A stretch of DNA of 64,000 nt, taken from the NCBI GenBank assembly GCA_945900735.1, contig CAMDJX010000001.1:1-64000 (forward strand), written 5' to 3'. The translations under genes were made by a program, and so were the position numbers. This DNA comes from Acidimicrobium ferrooxidans DSM 10331 (GTDB taxonomy: Bacteria; Actinomycetota; Acidimicrobiia; Acidimicrobiales; Ilumatobacteraceae). The notes beneath the pieces are model-generated. The model was not told the DNA's origin. It did not search any database and was given only the letters and a program-made list of their open reading frames with translations. Below are positions 1 to 8,830 of this stretch, one piece after another. The number at the start of each line of letters is the position of its first letter. The stretch's first letter is position 1.

Positions 1-1908
1 TCTGCGCCGCTTGCATTGTTCGGTGGCTCAGTAACTCTTCCGGTAGCCGCTCGCCAAAGCGTGAAGCGCGGTTTGACTGGGTTGGAGTGGGGTGTTGGAG
101 TGCCCGGATCTATCGGCGGCGCTGTACGAATGAATGCTGGTGGTCATGGGTCGGACATGGCGTCATCGCTCGAATCGGTCCGGGTGTTTCATTTGCGCAA
201 AGGAAGGGAGTTCGACCTTGAAACAGATGATCTTGGTTTGCGCTTCAGGGGCTCTGCACTCACTGATCATCACCTGGTGTTGAGCGCGACGTTGCGATTG
301 GGTTGGCTGTCGGAAGGCGACTCGGGTGAGGACAGGCTGACCGAAATTGTGCGCTGGCGTCGAGAGAATCAGCCGGGCGGGCAGAACGCAGGTTCTGTAT
401 TCGTCAACCCAGTTCCAGGAGAAGTGTCAGCAGGGGCGCTAATCGACGAGTGCGGCCTGCGTGGTTTCCGTATTGGTACTGCGCAGGTGTCGGAGAAGCA
501 CGCAAATTTCATCCAAGCAGATGAAGGCGGCTTGTCCCACGATGTAGTTGCGGTGATGGCCGAAGTTCGGCGGCGTGTGTATGAACAGCACGGACATCAA
601 CTACGAAGCGAAATTCGCCTCGTAGGTTTTGATGCTGAAGCCAACCCGCAGTTCGCGGATGTGCTGTCGAGCGAATCCGACACCAGCGTTGCAACTATTC
701 GTTTGGAACAGATCATTGAGCGCATCGTGACCAGCGAGTCTCGTCCAGACGCCTCAATTCCGCTTTCGGTGCTCAGCGGTTCACAACTTCCCGCTCAAGA
801 AGCAGACCTTTCGCCTGAAGTGTTGGACGAATTGCGTGAGGCATTTGCTAAAGACCCAACTGGTGGAATCGCGCAGCCAGAAACTTCGCGAGTTGTGATT
901 GTAGATCCGTCGATAGTGGAGATGGAACCGGTGGAGGAAATAGATCCAACGACGGGAGGAACGGGTTCATCCTCAACCAGAGTGGTCATTGTCGACGAGG
1001 ACTTGCGCCAATCAACGGACGATGACTTTCCGGCCGACACCGCATCGCAAACAGTTCATCACGCTCCCACAAGCACCCGGGTGCGGATTTTTGACGAAGA
1101 CGGTTCGGATGTTTCACTCGCAGAGATAGTCGAACCTGCGCAGTGGGGTGCCACGGGATCTATTCGCAACCGATTAGCGAGATTGTTCAGGCGCGACGGT
1201 ACGGCAACCAAAAATAGACGCAAACAGTTGCTTATCGCGGGTGCTTCTGCTGTCGGTTTTCTATCCTTGACGATCGTCCTTCTGGCGTCGCCAATTTTTT
1301 CGGTTCGCAACGTAAAAGTTGAAGGTGTGCGATACGCCAATTCTGAGTTGATCGAAAGTGTTGTCTCGTCTCTGAAGGGCGAATCAGTGTTGACAGTGGA
1401 TACCAATGTGCTGCAGGACCGCTTGGAAAGCGACCCATGGATCGAATCCTCGCGAATAAAGACATATTTGCCAAGTACTGCCGTAATTGAGATCAACGAG
1501 AGGATTCCTGCCGCGTGGTTTGTCGGCGTCGACAATCGTGCGCGCGTAATTGATGTGGATGGCCTTGTTCTGGCGGTGCTCGACGGAAGGCCTACCGAGT
1601 ACATGCTGATCGATGGTGTCGGCCCGAATCTCATTGCCGGTGCAACGACTGCGCCGGAGTACCGCGCCGCAGCACAACTCGCGCAGTCGATTCCCGTTGA
1701 GATCCAGACGCTCGTCAAAAACCTGGGGGTTGGCGGGTCCGACTCTGTCACGATGACCCTGACTACGGGAACTCTGGTGAAGTTCGGTGAGCCAGTGGAT
1801 ATGCGTAACAAGCTGGTCAATGTGGTCGTCCTGTTACGTCGTCAAGACCCCAATGGAATCCTAGAAATCGATGTCTCCGGAGGGACTCCGGTCGTTAAAT
1901 CCGCATAA
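1..1908 (+). CDS. murB-ftsQ: MurB (UDP-N-acetylenolpyruvoylglucosamine reductase) fused in frame to FtsQ (POTRA division protein); 5' end lies outside the window
   Basis: Frame open from nt 1. MurB motifs GLEWGVGVPGSIGGAVRMNAGGHG and NAGSVFVNP, then a ~190 aa linker, a TM segment (LLIAGASAVGFLSLTIVLLASPIF) and a POTRA-like FSVRNVKVEGVRYANSELIESVV segment; directly upstream of ftsZ. Confidence 0.88.
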   Translation, partial: SAPLALFGGSVTLPVAARQSVKRGLTGLEWGVGVPGSIGGAVRMNAGGHGSDMASSLESVRVFHLRKGREFDLETDDLGLRFRGSALTDHHLVLSATLRLGWLSEGDSGEDRLTEIVRWRRENQPGGQNAGSVFVNPVPGEVSAGALIDECGLRGFRIGTAQVSEKHANFIQADEGGLSHDVVAVMAEVRRRVYEQHGHQLRSEIRLVGFDAEANPQFADVLSSESDTSVATIRLEQIIERIVTSESRPDASIPLSVLSGSQLPAQEADLSPEVLDELREAFAKDPTGGIAQPETSRVVIVDPSIVEMEPVEEIDPTTGGTGSSSTRVVIVDEDLRQSTDDDFPADTASQTVHHAPTSTRVRIFDEDGSDVSLAEIVEPAQWGATGSIRNRLARLFRRDGTATKNRRKQLLIAGASAVGFLSLTIVLLASPIFSVRNVKVEGVRYANSELIESVVSSLKGESVLTVDTNVLQDRLESDPWIESSRIKTYLPSTAVIEINERIPAAWFVGVDNRARVIDVDGLVLAVLDGRPTEYMLIDGVGPNLIAGATTAPEYRAAAQLAQSIPVEIQTLVKNLGVGGSDSVTMTLTTGTLVKFGEPVDMRNKLVNVVVLLRRQDPNGILEIDVSGGTPVVKSA

Positions 1909-2043: not shown

Positions 2044-3150
2044 ATGGCTGGTGCCCCACAGAACTATCTCGCAGTGATCAAAGTGATCGGTGTCGGTGGT
2101 GGTGGCGTTAATGCCATCAACCGAATGATCGACGCAGGTTTGCGAGGAGTCGAGTTCGTTGCGGTGAACACCGACGCCCAGGCTCTGTTGATGAGTGATG
2201 CTGACTTCAAGATCGATATTGGTCGCGAGCTCACTCGCGGTTTAGGCGCTGGAAGCGATCCAGAAATCGGTCGTGAAGCTGCAGAGACTTCGCGCGCAGA
2301 CATCGAAGAGCTTGTGAGTGGAGCCGACATGGTGTTCATCACTGCAGGTGAAGGTGGTGGCACCGGCACGGGAGCCGCGCCGATCATCGCTGAAATCGCT
2401 CGCGCTGCCGGCGCACTTACGGTGGGCATCGTTACACGCCCATTTGGTTTCGAAGGTCGACGTCGCTCGCTGCAAGCCGAGTCCGGAATCAACAAATTGA
2501 AAGACAAAGTAGACACGTTGATCATCATTCCGAACGAACGGTTGCTCTCCGTTGCTACCGACAAGACGAGCCTGCTCGATGCCTTCCGCAAAGCGGATGA
2601 TGTATTGCTGCAGGGTGTTGCGGGTATTACCAACCTGATCACTACGCCTGGCCTGATCAACACCGACTTCGCCGACGTCAAAATGATTTTGACAAACGCG
2701 GGCAGCGCACTCATGGGCACCGGTAAAGCAACTGGCGACAACCGAGCAATCAATGCCGCAAACGCAGCCATTAACTCACCGCTGCTCGAATCCTCAATTG
2801 AGGGTGCACGCGGCATTCTGCTCAACATCACTGGCCCGTCCGACATGGGCTTGTTCGAATTGAACTCGGCTGCCGAAATCGTTCATGGCGTTGCGCATCA
2901 AGACGCCAACATCATTTTCGGAACCGTTATCGACGATGAGCTTGAAGATGAAGTTCGCGTCACGGTCATCGCAGCAGGGTTCGATCGAACCGAGTCATCG
3001 GGCTCGCGCGCTGCAGCTCGTGACCAACGGTCAGGCGACGGGCGTCCAGGTGAAAACAAGGGCAGCCGTTTGAAAGAGTTGTTTGGTTCCGGAGAAGATC
3101 CGTTGCGTGATGACAGCGACGGCCTCGACGTACCTTCGTTCTTGAAATAA
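2044..3150 (+). CDS. ftsZ: Cell division protein FtsZ
   Basis: Tubulin signature [11 protein letters not shown]-terminal peptide [16 protein letters not shown] Shine-Dalgarno before ATG 2044 (the listed ORF start at 1924 is too early). Confidence 0.97.
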
Positions 3151-7843: not shown

Positions 7844-8830
7844 GTGATGCCTACATCAAAAAAGAAGATCGCTAAAAAGAAGCCGGTAGCTAAGAAAAAG
7901 TCGGCGCCGAAGAATGTACCTGCAGCGAAGAAAGCTGCAGCCAAGAAGAAGGCCGAGTTGGCCAAGAAGTTGGCTGCTAAGAAGAAGGCTGATGCCCTGA
8001 AAGCTGCGGCAAAAAAGAAGGCCGAATTGGCCAAGAAGTTGGCCGCCAATAAGAAGGAAGCTGCCAGGAAAAAGATCGAGGCCCAGAAATTGGCAACAGC
8101 CAAAAAGGCCGCCGAAGCCGCCAAGAAGAAGGCGAAGCGCGAGGCCGAGATTGCCAAAAAGAAACTTGCTGCCGAGCGAAAGAAACAACAGATCATTGCT
8201 CAAAAACAGAAGATTCTTGCGGCCAAGGAAAAGGCCAAGGAAAAAGCTCGCGTCGAAGCGGAGCGACTAGCTGCCAAAGCTGCTCTTGAGGCAGAACGCA
8301 ATGCAGCACGTGAGGCTAAAGAGGCTGCACGTTTGTTGGCGTTGGCAGAAAAAGAAGCAGCTCGAGAAGCAGCGCTTCGCGCCAAGAGGAAACCAGAGCC
8401 ACCGCCACGTCCGCCAATTATCAAAACCGAGTTCGTAGACGGTCTGCAAGCAACAAAAGAGTTTGATCTCAAGTTCCTCACATCCCAACGGGAAATGTTG
8501 TTGGAGAAGCGTGGGCTACTTACGCGTCAGGCGGTGCGGTTAGAAGATGAGGCGAATGCGATGATTGAAGACGTCGAAATGGGAGACGTGCAGTTTGACG
8601 AAGAGGGTGGCGAAGGCGACACCATGGTTGTCGAGCGCGAGCGCGACTTGATGTTGTCCGCACAGGCACGACAAGAAGTCGAAGAAATTGATGCCGCACT
8701 CGAGCGTTTGAAATCGGGAGAGTACGGATACTCGGTACACAGTGGTATGCCAATTCCTCGCGAACGCTTGAAAGCAATTCCGTGGACGACCGAATCGGTG
8801 CAAGAGCGCGTCGGTGGCATTGGTCGTTAA
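7844..8830 (+). CDS. DksA/TraR-like C-terminal region with a long Lys/Ala-rich histone-like N-terminal arm; zinc-finger cysteines absent
   Basis: N-terminal (AAAKKKAELAKKLAA) repeats; C-terminal EEIDAALERLKSGEYGYSVHSGMPIPRERLKAIPWTTESVQE aligns by eye to the DksA/TraR finger with S/S/S/E replacing C/C/C/C. Confidence 0.75.
   Translation: MMPTSKKKIAKKKPVAKKKSAPKNVPAAKKAAAKKKAELAKKLAAKKKADALKAAAKKKAELAKKLAANKKEAARKKIEAQKLATAKKAAEAAKKKAKREAEIAKKKLAAERKKQQIIAQKQKILAAKEKAKEKARVEAERLAAKAALEAERNAAREAKEAARLLALAEKEAAREAALRAKRKPEPPPRPPIIKTEFVDGLQATKEFDLKFLTSQREMLLEKRGLLTRQAVRLEDEANAMIEDVEMGDVQFDEEGGEGDTMVVERERDLMLSAQARQEVEEIDAALERLKSGEYGYSVHSGMPIPRERLKAIPWTTESVQERVGGIGR
7934..8071 (+). repeat. Two tandem 69-bp (23-aa) units in the DksA-like gene
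   Basis: AAAKKKAELAKKLAAKKKADALK followed by AAAKKKAELAKKLAANKKEAARK. Confidence 0.8.

Follow-up and report, generated by a model that had tools for sequence, protein, structure and literature searches.

The window, a stretch of 64,000 nucleotides, opens with a single reading frame on the forward strand (frame 1) that is uninterrupted from base 1 to a stop codon at 1906–1908 and encodes 635 amino acids. Base 1 of the window is also base 1 of its contig and lies within murB, so that around 111 amino-terminal MurB residues are missing. What is present is the carboxy-terminal two thirds of MurB, a linker of about 190 residues, one trans-membrane helix and the POTRA and beta-domains of FtsQ (Table 1). 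Pfam matches are, in order, the end of FAD_binding_4 (amino acids 7–69), MurB_C (amino acids 111–208, E = 1e-26), POTRA_1 (amino acids 433–501, E = 2e-11, 44.4 bits) and FtsQ_DivIB_C (amino acids 512–615, E = 8e-4); the last, at 20.6 bits with a cut-off of 21, is marginal by sequence. The source genome, which is 91% complete, contains a single MurB_C match and a single POTRA_1 match, both in the fused frame.

The whole gene is present in a metagenome-assembled genome (MAG) that is 95% identical (locus L004/L033), where it encodes 746 amino acids with a calculated mass of 80 kDa. Its GTG start overlaps the end of an upstream open reading frame, which we infer from this overlap to be the end of murC. 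In both the MAG and the window ftsZ follows directly downstream, its ATG in the window being preceded by AGGAGG; beyond ftsZ, the window encodes a YggS-type PLP protein, sepF, yggT and ileS. Further along, at 7844–8830, a protein of 328 amino acids with a long Lys/Ala-rich amino-terminus has no Pfam match; its carboxy-terminus presumably recalls DksA/TraR-type proteins, although this is an impression only.

Table 1. Features of the fused gene and its downstream neighbour in the window.
Feature	Position	Strand	Basis
C-terminal two thirds of MurB (UDP-N-acetylenolpyruvoylglucosamine reductase)	1..645	+	Pfam and invariant catalytic residues; N-terminus lost at contig edge
Linker: acidic, mostly disordered (predicted) FtsQ cytoplasmic tail joined to MurB C-terminus	646..1215	+	In-frame purifying selection, low pLDDT, motifs common to unfused FtsQ
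Helix motif EVLDELREAF	817..846	+	Motif counts in fused and separate tails; predicted short helix
RVVIVD motif, first copy	889..906	+	Motif count
RVVIVD motif, second copy (the copy conserved in the clade)	979..996	+	Alignment, motif count
RVRIFD, degenerate third copy of the RVVIVD motif	1078..1095	+	Read from sequence
Basic juxtamembrane stretch	1162..1227	+	Net +8 in the 30 amino acids before the TM helix
Single TM helix, predicted N-terminus inside	1228..1296	+	Hydropathy of the homologous L033 stretch; helix 517–539 in the L033 model
FtsQ POTRA_1 domain	1297..1503	+	Pfam
FtsQ/DivIB C-terminal beta-domain	1534..1845	+	Pfam, 20.6 bits against 21; Foldseek matches to the FtsQ chain of FtsQ-FtsB and FtsQ-FtsB-FtsL structures
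ftsZ, next gene downstream	2044..3150	+	ORF; AGGAGG upstream of ATG

Distribution and origin of the fused gene

The uninterrupted fusion is present in 59 species-level genomes of three genera, labelled g1 (20 genomes), g4 (27 genomes) and g9 (12 genomes), that is, in all readable members of these genera in a family survey of 222 genomes. Of the 59, 56 were verified by frame analysis; the other three, all in g9, are assigned solely on a tblastn match without interruption. In the few remaining g1, g4 and g9 genomes a contig end cuts the gene or the assembly lacks it, and none of the genomes of these genera has separate murB and ftsQ genes. In every other genus of the family examined by frame, the two genes are separate. 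The fused frame, kept across three genera, is conserved beyond chance. The open frame, the Pfam domains and this conservation bear out the initial annotation, which had described an uninterrupted MurB-linker-TM-FtsQ frame directly upstream of ftsZ, as a true in-frame fusion.

An error joining two genes might be suspected, as the window is one MAG contig with the gene at its edge. However, the same open frame recurs in 58 other genomes, many of them from separate projects and sites. The chance of an assembly artefact is vanishingly small, and a sequencing error hiding a stop or start codon in the linker, raised at the outset as what would undo the fusion, is excluded by the same frame in independent assemblies.

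The fused genera appear to be Ilumatobacteraceae or close by, their MAGs seemingly from lakes and brackish water, and their genomes are small (about 1–2.2 Mb). Four loci (L051, L061, L091 and L097) come from records titled Ferrithrix or Bifidobacterium breve; as these genes sit inside the Ilumatobacteraceae-type clade, the names look wrong. Apparent tblastn fusions in g13 (G034, G102), g6 (G027) and g3 (G089) were rejected: murB and ftsQ share a reading frame at these loci (L121, L122, L123 and L124, respectively), but at least one in-frame stop parts them. Among the best-scoring rows of 199 genomes of the phylum (one phylum), none of the inspected long FtsQ frames is a MurB-FtsQ fusion; those of nine other phylum members, about 580–880 amino acids long, were rejected as such on inspection. 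Two genomes (G361 and G331, loci L161 and L162) contain an FtsQ frame of around 600 amino acids with an insertion of about 110–145 residues between the POTRA and carboxy-terminal regions. The statement that murB and ftsQ are neighbours in most actinobacterial dcw clusters holds for this order, but in four of nine other phylum members inspected no murB was seen within the few kilobases around ftsQ that were covered.

On a tree of MurB plus FtsQ (118 rows, quick method, linker left out), a single switch between the separate and the fused state is required, with an SH-aLRT of 97 for the fused side. Where the genes are separate, murB and ftsQ share a candidate 4-nucleotide overlap in 34 of 68 rows; in most of the rest they overlap in some other way or lie almost end to end. 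The simplest origin is loss of the stop/start junction in such an overlapping or closely spaced pair, which would have given rise to the fused gene in a single event.

Domains, linker and topology

The MurB part of L033 matches PF01565 (46.7 bits) and PF02873 (93.1 bits), both above the cut-off. The predicted L033 structure consists of a MurB fold, a disordered tail, a trans-membrane helix and an FtsQ fold; in Foldseek searches it matches the MurB structures 4pyt and 1hsk and clearly resembles the fold of FtsQ in 6h9o and 8hhf. Residues R194, S243 and E315 (L033 numbering), which we take to be the catalytic Arg, Ser and Glu of MurB, are invariant in 32 aligned rows and align to 1hsk, a MurB structure from S. 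aureus. By its domains and residues the fused MurB looks catalytically intact and would have NADPH-dependent reductase activity. Each g1 and g4 genome that has any MurB_C match has exactly one (these two genera were covered), so the fused MurB is apparently the cell's only MurB. A MurB domain that had lost catalysis and was retained on FtsQ purely for structure or sensing has a precedent of sorts in a MurB/MurC fusion that is without MurB activity in vitro, yet complements in vivo (PMC4803751). Nothing specific points to such a loss here: the catalytic residues are invariant, dN/dS of the MurB part is very low and no MurB other than the fused one was found, making the loss highly improbable.

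L033 has one trans-membrane segment by hydropathy, with a basic flank on the inner side. Because positive residues precede this single segment, the amino-terminus is predicted to be inside, in agreement with the earlier proposal that the FtsQ amino-terminus is cytoplasmic, where MurB acts. The best reading of the invariant residues, the single MurB_C match, the fold match and the predicted topology taken together would be a tethered, active and apparently sole MurB.

The linker length of about 190 residues given in the initial annotation is correct, although most of the linker is an ancestral FtsQ amino-terminal tail with conserved short motifs and not a new spacer. This is because the tails of unfused FtsQ proteins have the same layout: an acidic region, a helix motif, an RVVIVD-type motif, a basic stretch and the trans-membrane helix. 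The EVLxELxxxF motif is present in 45 of 50 fused and 28 of 52 separate FtsQ tails (about 0 in shuffled sequences), and the RVVIVD-type motif in 48 of 50 and 27 of 52, respectively (1–2 in shuffled sequences). Judging from these likenesses, the fusion has kept FtsQ's own tail, with MurB placed at the tail end. In the L033 model the tail is predicted to be disordered except for short helices, with low pLDDT. Both motifs recur in FtsQ tails family-wide, fused or not (L072, L089–L092, L098, L099, L105, L107, L110 and others), and look like putative binding sites for some partner. In M. tuberculosis, the cytoplasmic tail of FtsQ, 99 amino acids long, interacts with the FtsZ GTPase domain and with acidic membrane (PMC10036325). 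Like the tail in the fusion, it is long, disordered and first acidic, then basic, before the trans-membrane helix; unlike it, it carries no amino-terminal enzyme. Its binding properties offer a lead, by analogy, for what the tail of the fused clade may do.

Between close fused pairs, dN/dS of the linker is about 0.01–0.28 and its third-position excess is strong (pooled, 146, 95 and 551 by codon position), as in MurB and FtsQ. No conserved in-frame internal start with a Shine-Dalgarno match was found in the linkers across the fused clade, and several linkers are without any ATG. Together, this coding constraint and the lack of a conserved start within the linker argue for its translation in frame as part of one chain, which may still be cleaved later. 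Production of two proteins after all, whether through translation initiated inside the gene or through proteolytic cleavage of the disordered tail, would be favoured by the length and modelled disorder of the linker and by the in-frame GTG, TTG and ATG codons with weak Shine-Dalgarno-like matches that are scattered in it. It is nevertheless unlikely: none of these starts is conserved, many linkers are without ATG, the conserved EVLxELxxxF helix is located upstream of most candidate starts, and the constraint on the linker is in frame. By virtue of the fused sequence MurB would be tethered to FtsQ, unless the protein is cleaved.

Possible roles of the fusion and known relatives

The explanation that best covers these observations, and which we hold to be probably correct as a whole, is that of a tethered, active and sole MurB of single origin on a normal FtsQ. 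The product would be one membrane protein of about 80 kDa, with active MurB amino-terminal in the cytoplasm, followed by FtsQ's long, flexible, acidic tail as tether and by one trans-membrane helix; the extra-cytoplasmic FtsQ part would be normal and bind FtsB/FtsL. With apparently no other MurB in the cell, UDP-MurNAc synthesis would be coupled 1:1 to FtsQ and anchored to the membrane at the places that FtsQ occupies, and wherever FtsQ goes, MurB should go too. We infer catalytic activity, divisome co-localisation and coordinated dosage of the fusion. In favour of this explanation, MurG of E. coli depends on FtsQ for its position at mid-cell (PMC2170320).

MreB is present in all 115 genomes tested, including all fused genomes tested, and most fused genomes have two SEDS proteins, which means that elongation, too, must draw on this one MurB. 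A fused clade without MreB, making wall only at the septum, was considered and rejected; retention of MreB in all fused genomes tested rules out a MurB that serves the septum only. UDP-MurNAc is soluble and can diffuse; its septal confinement or channelling, and any gain from a local supply of precursor, would be hypothetical. As to the SEDS (FtsW/RodA) matches, genomes of g1, g4 and g9 mostly have two, against three in many other members of the family.

The fused protein might be made and yet be a near-neutral consequence of overlapping genes and genome streamlining: the stop/start junction would have been lost and the loss fixed once in an ancestor, with MurB working as if free and its product diffusing to both elongation and division. 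Such a reading does not conflict with the physical side of the preferred explanation; it disputes no more than a functional gain. The ancestral overlap, which makes a junction-loss mutation easy, the small genomes of the clade, the demand of elongation for the same MurB and the sporadic fusion of other dcw neighbours (PMC4929429) all speak for it. Against it stand the lack of any reversal among the 59 genomes of g1, g4 and g9, although a fixed fusion would be expected to persist under either view, and sister genera with similarly small genomes, in which murB and ftsQ are still separate. On balance we give a near-neutral fusion a little under an even chance.

More far-reaching, and rather doubtful, is the possibility that the fusion amounts to a built-in metabolon of divisome and precursor synthesis. 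FtsQ would carry the sole MurB, and the tail motifs (EVLxELxxxF and RVVIVD) might bind the Z-ring, SepF or MurC/MurG; the division machinery would then place and dose the UDP-MurNAc step, and division status would control the supply of wall precursor.

An essential precursor enzyme has here been covalently joined to a core divisome protein by evolution and kept in every one of the 59 readable species of g1, g4 and g9. Whether the divisome harbours an organised complex of working precursor enzymes has long been asked, mostly through weak interactions or imaging. The fusion offers a direct test of whether MurB location or 1:1 dosage matters, and points to the conserved short motifs in the long FtsQ cytoplasmic tail of the family.

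A search confined largely to open-access papers turned up no description of a MurB-FtsQ fusion, a negative that carries little weight. Tentatively, the pairing appears to be unpublished, while fusions of dcw neighbours are already known: FtsW-MurG in Kribbella flavida and MurG-MurC in Cellulomonas gilvus (PMC4929429). Both join dcw neighbours, as MurB-FtsQ does, and the former likewise combines a divisome membrane protein with a precursor enzyme; they differ in their partners and are shown for named actinomycete species, whereas MurB-FtsQ is fixed across three genera with bitopic FtsQ as partner. The MurB-MurC fusion of Verrucomicrobium spinosum (PMC4803751) also has an amino-terminal MurB in a two-function protein and is confined to specific lineages, but consists of two soluble consecutive enzymes, with no membrane or divisome part. 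In the MurE-MurF fusion of Bordetella pertussis (PMC6420597), precursor enzymes are again fused, as they are in Chlamydia MurC-Ddl; in contrast to MurB-FtsQ, these two are made up of cytoplasmic enzymes only, with neither a trans-membrane helix nor FtsQ.
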